Assembly: GCF_004136015.1 (NCBI RefSeq)
Contig: NZ_CP024866.1
Coordinates: 193,089-257,088, forward strand
Reading direction: 5' to 3'
Length of the DNA: 64,000 nucleotides
DNA from: Pseudomonas sp. ACM7
GTDB lineage: Bacteria; Pseudomonadota; Gammaproteobacteria; Pseudomonadales; Pseudomonadaceae
Part shown: positions 1,861 through 52,475 of the stretch, piece by piece
How the letters are laid out: each line of letters begins with the position of its first letter
How positions within the stretch are numbered: the first letter of the stretch is position 1
Program-made: the position numbers and the translations under genes
Notes under the pieces: model-generated
Seen by the model: only the letters and a program-made list of their open reading frames with translations
What the model was told of the DNA's origin: nothing
Database searches by the model: none

Positions 1861-1944
1861 AGCAAAAAGCTCGCACGTCATTCGAACGGGTTTACTTCAA
1901 CATCAGCCTCAGTTCAAAACCAACCACTGACTGAGGCCTCCACC

Positions 1945-2619
1945 ATGAAGTTCTTTTTCCACCCTTCGCCCAACCCGATGAAAGTCGCCCTGCTGCTCGA
2001 AGAACTGCAAACGCCCTACGAATTGATCGGCGTCGATACCTTCAAAGGCGAGCAACACCTGCCGGCCTTTTTGGCGATCAACCCGAACGCCAAGGTGCCA
2101 GCCCTGGTCGATGGCGACGCGACTGTCTTCGACTCCCAGGCGATCCTGCTGCACCTGGCGCAAAAACATCAGCGCTTCCTGCCGACCTCCGTGGCCGGGC
2201 AAGCCGAGTTACTGTCCTGGCTGATGTTCATCGCCACCGGCCTGTCGCCATTTTCCGGCCAGGCGGTGCATTTCCTGCACCACGCACCGGAAGACCTGGC
2301 GTATGCGAAAAACCGCTACCTCAAGGAAGTCGAACGCCATTACCGCGTGCTCGATCAGCACCTGGCCGACCATCAGTACCTGGCCGGCGACACCTACAGC
2401 ATCGCCGACATTGCGCTCTGGGGTTGGGCCAATTACGCGCCGTACATCCTCGGCGAGAGCGGTCTGGCCGCGTACCCGAACGTCAAGCGCCTATTCGATG
2501 AAATCAGCGCCCGCCCGGCCGCCCAGCGGGCCCACGGTCTTAAAGAGAAACTGGTGCTGAAGGCGGAGTTCGACGAAGAAACCCGTCGCAACCTCTTCCC
2601 GCAGAACCAGGCGCAGTAA
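1945..2619 (+). CDS. Glutathione S-transferase family protein
   Basis: A 224-residue cytosolic GST. The N-terminal thioredoxin-like domain (1-80) has the NPNAKVPALVDGD turn with the conserved cis-proline and the FDSQAILLHLA segment that binds the gamma-glutamyl part of glutathione. The C-terminal helical domain (90-205) carries YLAGDTYSIADIALWGW, the N-capping box region. It resembles the YfcG/YghU-type bacterial enzymes that handle disulfides or electrophiles, but the substrate cannot be read from sequence. It lies 28 bp upstream of a small monooxygenase, probably in one operon. Confidence 0.85.
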   Translation: MKFFFHPSPNPMKVALLLEELQTPYELIGVDTFKGEQHLPAFLAINPNAKVPALVDGDATVFDSQAILLHLAQKHQRFLPTSVAGQAELLSWLMFIATGLSPFSGQAVHFLHHAPEDLAYAKNRYLKEVERHYRVLDQHLADHQYLAGDTYSIADIALWGWANYAPYILGESGLAAYPNVKRLFDEISARPAAQRAHGLKEKLVLKAEFDEETRRNLFPQNQAQ

Positions 2620-2647
2620 CCCATTCACAGCATTCGAAGGTGATGAA

Positions 2648-2974
2648 ATGAGTGATCAAGTCGCGTTTATCGTTTACCTGCCGGCCAAACCGGAACGTTT
2701 CGCCGAAATGAAAGAACGGCTGCTGGACGTGGTGCACCAGATGTCGGCCGAGCCGGACTTCGTCAACACCTGGGTTCACCAACTCCAGGACGACCCGAAC
2801 ACCTTGGTGCTTTACGAAACCTGGAACTGCAGCAAGAACGACTTCATTACGCGTCACCTGAGCAAGCCGTATCGACAAGCGTATGAACAACTGCTCCCGC
2901 AGTTGCTGGTCAGCGAACGTCGCATTGAGTTTCTGAATGTGATCAAGAGCTATCCGGTGCGACGTGGGGTCTGA
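2648..2974 (+). CDS. ABM-domain monooxygenase, YgiN-like
   Basis: A 108-residue protein with one antibiotic biosynthesis monooxygenase domain, a dimeric ferredoxin-like fold. Typical elements are the first strand VAFIVYLPAKPER, the central helix ERLLDVVHQM and VLYETWNCSKND, where the family has its conserved YE-W. Relatives include the quinol monooxygenase YgiN. A weak GAAGG lies 7 nt before the ATG. The pairing with a GST suggests metabolism or detoxification of quinones or other electrophiles, which is inference from context. Confidence 0.8.
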   Translation: MSDQVAFIVYLPAKPERFAEMKERLLDVVHQMSAEPDFVNTWVHQLQDDPNTLVLYETWNCSKNDFITRHLSKPYRQAYEQLLPQLLVSERRIEFLNVIKSYPVRRGV

Positions 2975-3019
2975 GAGGACGTTCCAGCGTGACCACGAGC
3001 CGCGTGAATGCTGCTAAAC

Positions 3020-3043
3020 AGCGAGGGCGCAAGCGCCCTCGCT
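3020..3043. terminator. GC-rich hairpin between convergent genes
   Basis: AGCGAGGGCGC and GCGCCCTCGCT form a perfect 11-bp stem with a 2-nt gap, 45 bp after the monooxygenase stop and 13 bp beyond the convergent DUF6124 stop. There is no clear T-run on either strand. It probably acts as a transcription stop or 3'-end stabiliser for both genes. Confidence 0.5.
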
Positions 3044-3056
3044 ACCCGCCTGGCTA

Positions 3057-3425
3057 CTACCCAGGCTTGTGGTTATCCAGTACGCGATTGACCGCTAACT
3101 CCCCCAACATGATGACCCGTTGCAGCACCAGCATCGTTTGGCGTCGTGGGCCGTCCGTCAAGCCGGTGAGATCGTTGACTATGGCGCTGGCTGCTGCCAA
3201 CGATTCGCAGGCCTCGACGAGCAACGTTTCGTCATCCACCGCTGCGTCGATGGTGAAAATGGTGCTGGGCTTGCGGGGCGGTATCTGCGTTTTCGACGCC
3301 CCGGGGTCGAGGTAGAAGCTGAGTGCGCGGTCGGCCGCCTCTTTCATTTTCTTGGGGTCAAGATCAAGAAAGGCGTCGTAGGGTAGCGGACCGCTATTCG
3401 GGGGGTTGGGCGTAACTTTGAACAT
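3057..3425 (-). CDS. DUF6124 family protein, copy 1
   Basis: A 122-residue soluble helical protein of a Pseudomonas-restricted family without known function. It opens with MFKVTPNPP, as does the second copy at 50274-50633. Both then have a KK(M/L)-EAA-RAL helix, a short linker, a FTIDAAVDDETLLVE-type segment and a hydrophobic helix ending in N-LD. AAGGAG lies 10 nt before the ATG and can pair with CTCCTT 12 nt further 5' in the leader, hiding the ribosome site. The long structured leader (separate entry) suggests RNA-level regulation. Existence is well supported; function unknown. Confidence 0.8.
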   Translation of the reverse strand: MFKVTPNPPNSGPLPYDAFLDLDPKKMKEAADRALSFYLDPGASKTQIPPRKPSTIFTIDAAVDDETLLVEACESLAAASAIVNDLTGLTDGPRRQTMLVLQRVIMLGELAVNRVLDNHKPG

Positions 3426-3830
3426 AGATGAAAACTCCTTGTTGCAGATTTTAAGGAGCCATCACCCTCGCTACCAAACGAAGGGTGGCGGCCATACGCG
3501 GGTTGGTAGACCGGCTGCAACAGGAAACCCGGCGCTCACAAAGGAGCCCCACGCATGACCACCATAAAAGCAGAGTCCCAAAAAAGAGACGGCATAAGGT
3601 GTTGCCATACGGCTGTTACAAGGCGGGCTACCAAACCCGATCACTGTTTTTCAGTGACAGGGAAACGATATAGCCTGCCCCACAGCCGCACAAGCCAGCG
3701 GATTCTGGCGCACGCGTAGGTAACGACGCAAGGCGTTGTAGCCGTTAGGACGTAACATCGAGTGTCTTTAAACGCGTACGTTAAACGCATGAAAGCGTTC
3801 AAAAAATTGAGGAAGCGTCCGACATTTTTT
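3426..3830 (-). promoter_or_regulatory. Structured 5' leader of DUF6124 copy 1
   Basis: About 400 nt upstream of the DUF6124 gene hold no convincing gene but match the leader at 50634-51070 in layout. On the + strand the motif CTACCAAAC occurs at 3471 and 3628, with its complement TTGGTAG at 3503. Hairpin TCACTG/CAGTGA lies at 3641-3657, and CACCCT/AGGGTG at 3463-3487 encloses the first motif copy. CTCCTT/AAGGAG at 3435-3458 would mask the ribosome site. In copy 2 the same stems exist with different bases, which supports RNA structure. The 5' boundary is set by where the similarity fades, near a T-rich stretch around 3830. Confidence 0.65.
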
Positions 3831-3988
3831 AGGGGTTGGCTGTCGCAAGCGAGAGGTTTAGTGTGGTTGCTCCCATCAGGTAGAGATATGGGGCCACGTG
3901 GTGCTTGGCAGGGTGCACTTCATATTGACACCCACGACAGCGAGCCACATACCGATGAGATTGCTAGGTATTGATCCCGGAGGTCACG

Positions 3989-4180
3989 ATGAGCGCCGAA
4001 CTTTCCCCCATCGTTTCAGAGTTTGAAACCGAAGAGCAGGCCGCCAGCTACGACCGTTGGTTCCGTGCCAAAGTGCAGGCGTCGCTCGATGATCCGCGCC
4101 CGAATGTCCCGCACGATCAGGTAATGGCTGATGTGCGATCCCTTCTCGAAGCCAAGCGCAATAAGCGCGATGCTGGTTGA
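3989..4180 (+). CDS. Antitoxin of a ParE/RelE-type module (stability determinant family)
   Basis: A 63-residue acidic protein starting MSAELSPIVSEFETEEQAASYDRWF, of the family annotated as stability determinant and paired with ParE-type toxins. GGAGG lies 6 nt before the ATG, which decides the start over an upstream in-frame ATT. The stop overlaps the ATG of the toxin reading frame, the usual arrangement for translational coupling. The toxin gene is frameshifted, so this antitoxin is now an orphan. It could still repress its own promoter or counteract related toxins elsewhere. Confidence 0.75.
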   Translation: MSAELSPIVSEFETEEQAASYDRWFRAKVQASLDDPRPNVPHDQVMADVRSLLEAKRNKRDAG

Positions 4181-4438
4181 GGGCGGCCCGAAGCTCGGGC
4201 TGAACTGTGGCAAATAATTGATTATATTGGCGACCGCCACCTTGTTGCGGCGAGTGAACTGTACCAAGCCATCGAGGCTGCTACCTCAGCCCTTCCGCAA
4301 CATCCCTACCTTTATCGATTTGGTCGTGTACCCGGTACGCGGGAAATTGTTGTGCACCCCAATTACCTGGTGGTCTACCGGGTGACGGATCGAATCGAGA
4401 TCGTGACCGTTTTGCATGCCAGGCAGGAGTACCCCTGA
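4170..4438 (+). pseudogene. Frameshifted ParE/RelE-type toxin
   Basis: The start codon at 4170 gives MLVE and then runs into a short wrong frame ending in TAA. One base off, from 4184, the frame reads RPEARAELWQIIDYIGDR and continues to the stop at 4436-4438 with the typical ParE features: RFGRVPGTREIVVHPNYLVV, then YRVTDRIEIVTVLHARQEYP at the end. A single missing base near 4181, where relatives have a Trp codon before RPEAR, accounts for the break. No alternative start codon with a ribosome site is visible in the toxin frame. Confidence 0.75.
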
Positions 4439-50273: not shown

Positions 50274-50633
50274 TTACGCAGGTGGCTCAATTTTATCCAG
50301 CAATCGGTTTGCCGTGATTTCAGCCACCATGACGCTGTTGGAAATGCCCAACAGGGAATAGCGCGAGCCACCATCCAAGCGGTCCACCAACTCGTGGACC
50401 ATCACATCAATCGCGGCCAGGGTTTCGACCAGAAAAACCGCCAGGGTTTCGGTCGTGGCCTCTGGGTCCACGTAAAACAGGGTGCTGCGTGTTCGCGGGG
50501 TGGCTTTGATGTCGGCAATCGACGGGAAGTGGTAATTGAGAGCCCGCTCGGCGGCTTCGTTGAGTTTTTTTGAATCGGGTTCGTACGGGGAGACCGGATC
50601 GGTGTCCGGTGGGTTGGGTGTGACCTTGAACAT
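50274..50633 (-). CDS. DUF6124 family protein, copy 2
   Basis: A 119-residue relative of the gene at 3057-3425. Both start MFKVTPNPP; here DSKKLNEAAERALNYHF and TLFYVDPEATTETLAVFLVE follow, with NSVMVAEITANRLLDKI at the end matching VIMLGELAVNRVLDN in copy 1. GAGG lies 8 nt before the ATG. It has the same kind of long structured leader. Function unknown; presence of two copies with matched leaders suggests a regulatory or stress role tied to the RNA, which is inference. Confidence 0.8.
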   Translation of the reverse strand: MFKVTPNPPDTDPVSPYEPDSKKLNEAAERALNYHFPSIADIKATPRTRSTLFYVDPEATTETLAVFLVETLAAIDVMVHELVDRLDGGSRYSLLGISNSVMVAEITANRLLDKIEPPA

Positions 50634-51070
50634 GGTAAATCCTCGTTTACTGGTGGAGCTGCCACGTTCGTTTCCAAGCGAAGGGGTGGCAGCTGTACGC
50701 AGGTTGGAAAACCAGGGTAAACGAGCCCGGCAGACCTATAAGGTCTCCCGCGCACAGCCGCCATAACGGAATGCACATAGTGCGAAAAAGTACGTTATGA
50801 AGAGGTGCCTTCGTGTCGTTTACCCGTCGAGTTTCCAAGCCCGACCGCTGAATTATCAGCGACACGGAAACGATAGAACCAAGGCTCACGTCACACAAGC
50901 CGGCGGATTCTGGCGCAGCCGTAGGCAACGGCGCAAGGTTTTGTAGCTTTCAGGACGTAACCTTGATGGCGCTTAAACAAACACCCTGTGGAGATGTTTA
51001 ATAATCTGACGCACGCTTCTTGCGCGAGGTGAAACCTTGAGAAAATCATGGACGCATCCTACACATTTTT
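50634..51070 (-). promoter_or_regulatory. Structured 5' leader of DUF6124 copy 2
   Basis: Equivalent of 3426-3830. On the + strand the motif TTTCCAA occurs at 50671 and 50832, with its complement TTGGAAA at 50704. AGCTGCCAC/GTGGCAGCT (50657-50694) is a perfect 9-bp stem around the first motif copy. CGCTGA/TCAGCG with loop ATTA is at 50846-50861. The block GGCGGATTCTGGCGCA near 50900 and GGACGTAAC near 50953 are the best conserved primary-sequence parts. The 5' end is taken near the T-run CATTTTTTA at about 51062-51070, as in copy 1. Confidence 0.65.
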
Positions 51071-51123
51071 TAAGTCTAAGCGTCGCAGGTGTAGTGGGTA
51101 GTGTGAACTCTTGAATCAGTCTG

Positions 51124-51176
51124 ATTCCGGCCAAAAGGAGTCAGTCGGATGTGTCTACGAAACTAGGGGCGATTCA
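51124..51176 (+). repeat. Dispersed intergenic repeat, long form
   Basis: TCCGGCCAAAAGGAGTCAGT, then ATGTGTCTACGAAACTAGGG and GCGATTCA. The second part is shared with the copies at 53859-53914 (ATGTGTCTACGAATCAAGG) and 10930-10982 (GGGGGCGATTCA). Confidence 0.6.
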
Positions 51177-51338
51177 CCACGACCCGGTATCGTTTATAGA
51201 AAGCAACTGACACGGAACACGGAAGGTTTTCAGCAAGACTTTTGGGATTTGTCTTGCAGCCATTGTTTGAGCTTCCCGATAAAGTCAGACTACCCCAGCC
51301 CCAAGCTGGAACTCCTCGCAACGACTCAAGGACGATAC

Positions 51339-52475
51339 ATGATTTCTTCTGCACGACTGGGTGACAAGCATGTCTGCCCTTTGCCCGGCCATGGCACCAC
51401 CCCGATTGCCTCCGCCAGTGGCGACGTAAATATCAACTTTATGGGCTCCGCACGTGTTGGCGATACATGTGGTTGTGGCACCGTAATCACCACAGGGTTT
51501 CCATCGATTCAAGTGAATGGCCGTCCTATGGCCCACCTTGGCAGTCCTACCAGCCATGGCGGAACCATCATCACCGGGTCAGGCGATGTAGGTGGCGGGT
51601 TTGTCATGGGCGATGCTGGCGGTGCAACCATCATCAACTTCATGGCACTGGGAGCTTTCCGCCCAGATGGCACCGTGGACGATGAAAAGATGGCGACCTT
51701 GCTCGCTGATCCAAATTTGAAAGAGAAGGCTCTGGCGGCGAATGCCTTGGTAGATCCGCAAGCCAGCACCGAAAAACCCGAAGCGAAGACAGAGCCGGAA
51801 GCACCTACTACGTGCAAAGACCCTGACATGATGGAGCAACTGGCCGATTACATCGCCGATGAGATGAACCGCAATATCAAAGACCCAGCAGTCTTGGAAA
51901 TGAAAGAACTAAACAGCTTCGATCCTGAGGCGGAAACCAAGAAATTTATGGAGCTTCCGCTCTACCTGCGCCTAGGGCAAGACCCCCAGTTTTACAACAT
52001 GGAACTTGGAAAAAAGGCGATGGCTTTCGCCATCTGGACGAAACAGGTGGGTCAGGGTCAGGATTGGGATCACAAGCCCAAATTGGCCAAACTGTTTGGT
52101 GTACCTTGGCACAAACAAGGGGCGTATGACTTCTACTACGACATCTGGTCGAACATCCATTATGGGTATGTCGGCTTAGCCGGTGGACTCTCTGACAGCG
52201 TGCAATTGGACGGCGCTGGAGTTGAGCAAATAGGCTCAGACAGTTGGCGCTTCCTCAAAGACCCTAAGAGGTTTGATGGCCCACGAAGGACGGAAGGCGT
52301 CGAAGGGATGCGAGCATGGGACGATGCTCCTGATAGGGTGTCGATTATCCTCGGAATGGAACTCTACAAGGAGTATCCGAACGGCGGTGTCACTGCACAA
52401 ATCATCATGGACAAGGTGTTGGCAGTGCCAATTGCTGACTGGGGTACAGGGGTTCAAAAACATGCCTGCAAGTGA
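51339..52475 (+). CDS. PAAR-domain effector with polymorphic toxin type 44 domain
   Basis: A 378-residue protein. Residues 1-95 form a PAAR domain (ARLGDKHVCPLPGHGTTPIA, ARVGDTCGCG, INGRP-like VNGRPMAHLGSPTSHGG), the tip that caps the type VI secretion spike. A linker rich in Glu/Pro/Lys follows (140-165). The C-terminal domain (about 170-375) has WDHKPKLAKLFG and the type 44 toxin signature SNIHYGYVGLAGGL with DGAGVEQ. The start at 51339 has AAGGA 7 nt upstream. It is likely to be delivered into rival cells; the activity of this toxin type is not well defined. Confidence 0.8.
   Translation: MISSARLGDKHVCPLPGHGTTPIASASGDVNINFMGSARVGDTCGCGTVITTGFPSIQVNGRPMAHLGSPTSHGGTIITGSGDVGGGFVMGDAGGATIINFMALGAFRPDGTVDDEKMATLLADPNLKEKALAANALVDPQASTEKPEAKTEPEAPTTCKDPDMMEQLADYIADEMNRNIKDPAVLEMKELNSFDPEAETKKFMELPLYLRLGQDPQFYNMELGKKAMAFAIWTKQVGQGQDWDHKPKLAKLFGVPWHKQGAYDFYYDIWSNIHYGYVGLAGGLSDSVQLDGAGVEQIGSDSWRFLKDPKRFDGPRRTEGVEGMRAWDDAPDRVSIILGMELYKEYPNGGVTAQIIMDKVLAVPIADWGTGVQKHACK

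Follow-up and report, generated by a model that had tools for sequence, protein, structure and literature searches.

Phage-type C4 antisense RNAs lie in the leaders of DUF6124 genes of Pseudomonas and probably act on the genes behind them

The stretch of Pseudomonas DNA analysed here (64,000 nucleotides, the window) carries two DUF6124 genes on its minus strand, one of 122 aa at 3057..3425 (copy 1, in the ORF listing; PF19619, 61.8 bits, E 5.8e-17) and one of 119 aa at 50274..50633 (copy 2; PF19619, 59.6 bits). An Rfam scan of the whole window placed C4 (RF01695) on the same strand in both leaders, at 3481..3569 with 74.2 bits and at 50682..50768 with 69.6 bits (gathering cut-off 45), and only C4 and P10 scored above their Rfam cut-offs across the entire 64 kb. 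Both DUF6124 leaders are the known phage-type antisense RNA C4. A permissive scan of positions 3000-4000 detected a c4-a1b1 element (RF03163) directly upstream of the copy 1 C4, at 3620..3671 on the minus strand, with 45.5 bits, slightly below the gathering cut-off of 46.7; its counterpart in copy 2, also on the minus strand, lies at 50824..50876 (genome 243912-243964) and scores 43.9 bits, below the same cut-off. In the same permissive scan, isrK (RF01394) reached 34.1 bits in copy 1, below its cut-off of 50.

We name the elements of the leaders throughout after phage P1, in which the CTACCAA/TTGGTAG motif is the 'a' element. The functional strand is the minus strand, and the copy 1 RNA therefore runs from a1 (3634..3628) through a' (3509..3503) and a2 (3477..3471) to the start codon (3425..3423). 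On that strand, a' of C4 reads CTACCAA in copy 1 (3503..3509) and TTTCCAA in copy 2 (50704..50710); the a2 targets read TTGGTAG (3471..3477) and TTGGAAA (50671..50677), as do the a1 targets (TTGGTAG at 3628..3634, within a hairpin loop, and TTGGAAA at 50832..50838). All six were placed from the sequence and the covariation register, and a1 of copy 1 from the permissive Rfam scan as well. A perfect-run search located b' in the loop of C4 hairpin 2 in copy 1 (TGTTGCAG, minus strand, 3515..3522) and at 50717..50725 of the minus strand in copy 2 (CTCGTTTAC). Its target b2 overlaps the Shine-Dalgarno sequence in both copies and is a perfect complement of b' over 8 bases in copy 1 (CTGCAACA, 3440..3447, minus strand, locus L019) and over 9 bases in copy 2 (GTAAACGAG, 50642..50650, minus strand, locus L023); the copy 1 Shine-Dalgarno, AAGGAG, was read from the sequence at 3436..3441 (minus strand). 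The a'/a2 runs are 7 bases long in both copies. Upstream, b1 of copy 2 (GGGTAAACGA, 50816..50825, minus strand) is a 10-base perfect complement of b'. The putative b1 of copy 1 (3612..3621, minus strand) is imperfect, requires G-U pairs and was placed by eye from the sequence, because the perfect-run search picked a different 6-mer there.

A preliminary description of this DNA had proposed a switching RNA from the forward strand, on which CTACCAA stands at 3471-3477 and 3628-3634 with TTGGTAG at 3503-3509, and from the concerted change of all three in copy 2 (TTTCCAA at 50671-50677 and 50832-50838, TTGGAAA at 50704-50710). These motifs can be read directly from the sequence, and so can a further hairpin that it listed (TCACTG 3641-3646/CAGTGA 3652-3657 in copy 1 versus CGCTGA 50846-50851/TCAGCG 50856-50861 in copy 2) and a hairpin over the ribosome site of copy 1 (CTCCTT 3436-3441/AAGGAG 3454-3459). 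It overlooked the complementarity of b', in the hairpin 2 loop, to the ribosome-binding site b2. Its structured RNA, its alternative pairing and its genuine covariation all stand. The idea of a new or ligand-type switch is not supported; the comparison with Rfam that it had suggested returned C4 above the cut-off in both leaders. A novel riboswitch was rejected on this match, and no known riboswitch family scored above its cut-off in the window.

The host genome (6.6 Mb, one contig) holds 30 C4 matches, 29 of them above the cut-off, together with 25 c4-a1b1 (RF03163) matches, seven above the cut-off; an a1b1 match is missing at five of the 30 C4 loci. Across the 30 paralogs the C4 fold is paired in 94.4% of 810 cells, with two-sided changes in 15 of 27 pairs; 0 of 500 shuffles were equally good, and slid structures were paired to at most 44.9%. 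Its three helices are paired in 95.9%, 98.7% and 85.3% of their cells and show two-sided changes in 8, 5 and 2 pairs. No protein-coding frame is conserved through C4: the coding explanation was rejected because the 30 copies, 84-93 nt long, vary in length by steps that are not multiples of three. A covariance model built from these paralogs detects the C4 of phage P1 itself, at 51.1 bits.

For pairing outside the fold, all 7-column registers with six columns filled in most rows were scanned, in blocks aligned separately and with pairing ignored, over the 25 of 30 loci with a c4-a1b1 match (all except L005, L011, L013, L015 and L025). Between C4 and the upstream block, a' x a1 came top of 4836 registers (95.4% paired, covariation score 0.915), and sliding it by 1-3 columns left at most 45.4% paired and a score of at most 0.166. 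Between C4 and the downstream block, a' x a2 came top of 2139 registers (94.1%, 0.905; never above 50.7% and 0.171 after a shift of 1-3 columns). The three-way covariation of a', a1 and a2 is far beyond chance; the concerted change first seen in two copies is borne out strongly by the 25 loci and by the paired fold of the 30 paralogs.

Because b' and b2 keep no single register, their fit was measured as the longest perfect run. In the 30 host loci this run averaged 7.10 for own versus 4.25 for non-own combinations of b'/b2, 6.93 versus 3.87 for a'/a2, 6.90 versus 4.89 for b'/b1 and 7.13 versus 4.80 for a'/a1; for all four contrasts 0 of 20000 permutations, in which shared ancestry is ignored, reached the observed value. 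The same b'/b2 contrast was found in named records (7.39 versus 4.19; 74 distinct loci after four duplicates of 78 were dropped; 0 of 5000 permutations) and in a second genome (7.27 versus 4.40; best 30 of 43 loci; 0 of 20000 permutations). In 30/30 host loci b2 overlaps positions -16 to -5, a result that is partly built in because the search covered the last 30 bases only. At five of the 30 loci, L003, L007, L008, L011 and L029, b' and b2 fit weakly, with runs of 4-5, and L008 has lost a2 as well (run of 3). The start codon of L015 was placed one base off in the perfect-run, own-target and RNAduplex comparisons of the host genome.

C4 occurs in 138 of 149 sampled Pseudomonas genomes, scored among the best 27 candidates per genome, and a hand-copied tally gives a median of 13 per genome (zeros included), with at least 10 in 91 genomes and at least 27 in 33. 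DUF6124 was found in 118 of the same 149. The second genome contains 43 C4 matches, 42 of them above the cut-off. In a sample of the class (best 15 candidates per genome), 18 of 274 genomes carry C4, the host included, and the other 17 have 1-6 each; in a sample of the order (best 17), 36 of 244 do, the richest outside the genus being a genome of the same family with 14. Within those samples, large numbers of C4 are therefore a feature of the genus and a close relative. Fifteen of the 20 DUF6124 genes of the host genome lie, by position, behind a C4; for the other five, a search of both strands found no convincing C4, and low matches (at most 20.7 bits) in two only. Among named loci, C4 precedes the DUF6124 start by 43-60 nt in 78 of 79, a biased sample because the search was seeded with one C4-linked DUF6124 and the best 80 matches were taken. 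Some loci have further C4 matches, six in all, that precede the main C4 by a few hundred bases (L095 1186-1271 and 1285-1364, L099 1341-1416, L118 1330-1421, L062 1342-1433 and L081 1514-1602), with 34-55 bits except for L081 (80.4 bits); these are perhaps tandem or decaying modules.

In all 30 host loci a start codon lies 46-59 nt behind C4, and in 27 it opens an ORF of 82-173 codons. At L003 and L009 (2326 kb and 1505 kb of the host genome) it opens an ORF of 28 or 34 codons whose stop overlaps the start of a DUF3077-type gene (ATGA), which suggests that C4 blocks a short leader ORF to which the main gene is translationally coupled; the arrangement is like the coupling described for P1 icd-ant and for isrK orf45-anrP. 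L001 (5656 kb) is closely related to copy 1; the frame opened by its start behind b2 ends after 22 codons, out of register with the remainder of DUF6124, and this copy may be broken. Pfam placed one of seven other C4-controlled proteins in DUF3077 (2.9e-34) and two in Bro-N (2.8e-11 and 7.2e-10), and gave no convincing family for the other four. The Bro-N domain was present in both loci tested, L005 and L024, and L030 is similar by eye; one Bro-N protein matched phage anti-repressor families in PHROGs (2.1e-11). The Bro-N ORF under C4 at L024 (1637-2026) starts MIKVTPNPPE, compared with MFKVTPNPP in DUF6124, which suggests that ORFs have been swapped behind a common leader and start.

The C4-controlled small ORFs resemble each other by eye. 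A common origin of DUF6124 and DUF3077 found no support, the hhalign probability being 2.2 against a single DUF3077 sequence. The structure model of DUF6124 is a helical hairpin (mean pLDDT 73.4, pTM 0.45) that found no fold match in the PDB at E <= 0.001, and its sequence had no match among PDB sequences. Against mobility by phage or plasmid, the plasmid records contain no DUF6124 and the phage records a single one, which lies at the extreme end of its record. A DUF3077 query found nothing in phage records; several IMG/VR contigs, of which some may extend into host DNA, do carry DUF3077-like ORFs behind C4.

Upstream of the modules, a conserved 24-nt block lies 15 nt from a1b1 on the minus strand, at 3687..3710 in copy 1 (genome 196775-196798) and 50892..50915 in copy 2 (genome 243980-244003), each with 1 mismatch. 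The genome contains 11 such sites, each preceding a C4-DUF6124 locus (11 of the 15 loci of this kind), and none at its DUF3077 and Bro-N C4 loci; the reversed pattern has 0 sites. The block is possibly an operator or part of a promoter. No sigma-70 consensus promoter was found at the expected place, and the single match in copy 1 (3477..3448) falls inside the leader. A relative, G002, lacks the copy 1 module: its flanks match window positions 1900-2964 (86%) and 3935-4434 (74%) and stand some 200 bases apart, which suggests that the module is gained or lost as a unit. The right flank (3796-3870) was considered as a repeated insertion target and rejected, its one other partial match in the genome at E <1 (28 bases, E 2.3e-4) lying upstream of L001. 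Two small ORFs that adjoin the copy 1 leader (3989-4438, plus strand) are toxin-antitoxin-like by eye (ParD/RelE type) and are kept in one relative with the C4 module and in one without it. Beside copy 2, the P10 Pseudomonas sRNA match (44.1 bits; 51356-51427, plus strand) falls within the early part of an ORF, 51111-52475, judged PAAR-like by eye.

When a and b runs were summed, the own target of a C4 was strictly the best in 25 of the 30 host loci and tied for best in 27; in the second genome, among the best-scoring 30 of 43 C4 matches, the figures were 23 and 24. Runs of a >= 7 together with b >= 6 were found in 22/30 own pairs (eight loci fall short) versus 1/870 non-own pairs in the host, and in 21/30 versus 8/870 in the second genome (best 30 of 43). 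RNAduplex energy was a weaker discriminator than perfect-run length: its means differ strongly, and it ranked the own target first in 5/30 loci for b'/b2, 0/30 for a'/a2 and 19/30 for C4 x a1b1. Among C4-controlled ORF pairs at least 60% identical, compared within one genome (limited to ORFs that start with ATG and are 60 aa or longer, the pairs not being independent), own beat cross in both directions in 12/16 pairs in the host and 45/50 in the second genome. Thus L014 and L028, whose proteins are 95% identical, score 15 and 13 on their own targets and 9 and 9 crosswise; L196 and L208 (91%) score 16 and 13 versus 6 and 7, and L199 and L200 (90%) 17 and 17 versus 7 and 10. Counter-examples are L202 and L206 (95%), where cross reaches 12 versus 11 for own, and pairs involving L008, with its lost sites. 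From their different a/b codes, the roughly 30 host modules look mostly insulated from one another.

We consider it highly probable that each leader is a chromosomal module of the phage P1 c4 type, ordered a1b1 - C4(a',b') - a2 - b2/SD - small ORF, in which C4 would repress and a1b1 relieve, and that the roughly 30 modules are mostly insulated. The leader would be transcribed as one unit and C4 cleaved out of it by RNase P, as in P1 and isrK. The C4 from the leader would then pair a' with a2 and b' with b2, and the b'/b2 duplex would mask the Shine-Dalgarno sequence and switch off translation of the downstream DUF6124 gene. The 5' a1b1, which repeats the same two target sequences, would compete for C4, either within one molecule or as an RNA of its own, and so free the ribosome site. 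Sequence comparison shows that C4 keeps its fold, that a' covaries with both a1 and a2, that b' is complementary to b2 where the ribosome binds, and that most C4 copies prefer their own gene. That the leader is one transcript, that C4 is cleaved from it, that C4 represses and that a1b1 relieves we infer by analogy, the last two because of the precedents in P1, A. baumannii, B. cenocepacia and Salmonella IsrK. Counting against this reading are the loci with a weak b'/b2 fit, the eight that fall short of the run thresholds, the RNAduplex ranking, the five DUF6124 genes that have no convincing C4, the a1b1 scores below the cut-off and the loci lacking an a1b1 match, the missing sigma-70 promoter and the frame of L001. 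An energy criterion for terminators upstream of C4 picked out 4 of the 30 loci, neither copy 1 nor copy 2 among them, and an isrK-type terminated sRNA as a general rule was rejected on this count. With a terminator consensus, the spacer of copy 1 yielded two weak sites, compared with a mean of 0.7 (sd 0.9) in shuffles, and that of copy 2 none.

Minimum-energy folds pair a1b1 with the C4 arm in the copy 1 leader and keep the C4 fold intact in the copy 2 leader, predictions that are in line with two competing states. They also suit a switch that works in cis only, in which the C4 part of the leader is either folded on itself or paired with a1b1 or a2b2 of the same molecule, on a cue from transcription speed, a protein or a ligand, and yields no free C4. 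We regard such a switch as unlikely. Citron and Schuster reportedly described the P1 repressor in 1992 as a free C4 RNA of 77 bases. The C4 studied here keeps the three-stem fold of phage P1, in whose record the repressor is likewise a free 77-base RNA (AF234172), and a study of A. baumannii C4-like RNAs found their C4 segment to be more abundant and apparently processed (PMC5320573). On the side of the cis-only switch there is further the readthrough mRNA of Gifsy-1 isrK, held in an inactive cis structure (PMC4825925).

A second alternative keeps C4 free and changes its targets: the dozens of chromosomal C4s would act chiefly in trans, on genes that incoming phages regulate by C4, as a P1-like immunity. 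The immunity logic of P1/P7 would favour it, phage-type C4 loci do exist among viral contigs, and Weiss et al. proposed it as one option for A. baumannii (PMC5320573). Nine such loci (L163, L168, L169, L171, L173, L174, L176, L180 and L181), in which the next frame often begins M-T-A-L-I-P-S-K/R-I-R, were compared with the 30 chromosomal C4s; they come from 9 of 28 contigs, a small set picked by eye and not from this host, and the viral scan sees one C4 subtype because it used one exact pattern. Each phage C4 matches the a2 and b2 of its own locus, with runs of 7-9 for a and 8-9 for b. At eight of the nine loci no chromosomal C4 reaches a >= 7 and b >= 6, and at none does one match as well as the phage's own C4; the exception, L168, is fitted by chromosomal L013 with a 7 and b 6, a run of 6 being easier to reach by chance here because the b2 stretch is about twice as long as in the chromosomal own-target test. 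With one fit in nine, and that worse than the phage's own, an anti-phage repertoire was rejected as the main role and seems improbable to us; what the chromosomal C4s do fit are the ORFs behind them. Least probable, in our estimate, is that the modules are decaying prophage remnants without present function. C4 is phage-derived, a2 or b2 fits are lost in some copies (L008, L029), the reading frame of L001 is broken, and a relative lacks the copy 1 module between the same flanks, all of which decay would explain; against it, the triple covariation and the complementarity are kept while the codes change, a long ORF of 82-173 codons stands directly in the C4 slot of 27 of the 30 loci, and C4 is present in 138 of the 149 genus genomes, which together point to selection.

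The self-specific repression module is our preferred reading. Its broader form, which we hold with evenly balanced confidence, is that Pseudomonas chromosomes may have turned a phage immunity switch into dozens of mutually insulated C4-mRNA pairs in each cell. Every C4 would silence the small protein of its own module, and selection would replace the a/b code, in some pairs more quickly than the protein sequence changes, so that paralogs escape cross-silencing. The sequence itself names a likely target for most C4 copies, gene by gene, and PMC5320573 leaves the C4s of A. baumannii without targets. If our reading is true, the modules would show how one cell separates some 30 similar antisense regulators, offer naturally occurring insulated RNA regulators and place DUF6124 and its small companions in a regulatory setting. 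In the literature searched, with most subscription journals and supplements outside it, we found no report of cis self-targeting C4 with locus-specific codes; nor was DUF6124 mentioned by name in the literature searched, most subscription journals again lying outside.

The closest known system is C4 of phages P1 and P7 (RF01695 with RF03163), which is alike in fold, in the order a1-b1-C4-a2-b2-ORF and in the position of b2 over the ribosome site. In the P1 record (AF234172), a1 (48255-61) and b1 (48269-76), both putative, are followed by C4 (48343-48419), a2 (48423-29), b2 (48452-59) and icd (48470), and the repression of icd-ant translation is ascribed to C4 binding at a2 and b2. Here, by contrast, C4 is chromosomal, has about 30 copies with different codes, and in 11 of 15 C4-DUF6124 modules shares the 24-nt upstream block. 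The place of icd-ant in P1 is taken in the host by solitary DUF6124/DUF3077-type ORFs or by short Bro-N proteins; the window copies would control DUF6124 only, with no antirepressor as in a P1-type immI operon (c4-icd-ant).

The upstream element also resembles the 5' element of isrK of Salmonella Gifsy-1 (RF01394; 34.1 bits for copy 1 against a cut-off of 50), from which the modules differ in this low score and in the terminators, found by the energy criterion at 4 of 30 loci and in neither window copy. A short 5' IsrK RNA of Salmonella activates translation of its own readthrough mRNA 139-fold (PMC4825925, Table 1B), and C4 and isrK share one transcription unit in B. cenocepacia (PMC4603805). 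The CI RNA of phage P4, with seqA/seqC, is likened here by description: it too is an antisense RNA processed from a leader with complementary sites on both sides (PMC4825925), but acts through premature transcription termination.

Rfam and Weinberg et al. 2010 (PMC2864571) place C4 and c4-a1b1 in Proteobacteria and phages, and this range includes Pseudomonadales (PMC5320573). In the latter paper, Weiss et al. 2016 described 21 C4-like sRNAs, to those authors' best knowledge the first large group in one genome, whose full-length forms appear to be processed, mostly at a GGW motif that is the RNase P site of P1 C4. The Group 1 C4-like sRNAs of A. baumannii are thus like the present ones in being many (21) per chromosome with a variable target loop. 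That study assigns them no targets and considers phage or other host transcripts, whereas most C4s here fit the adjacent ORF and their own 5' a1b1. C4 RNAs, and C4 in many copies in A. baumannii, are already known; in Pseudomonas, as the sequences support well, C4 appears in a chromosomal, multiplied and largely self-specific form.
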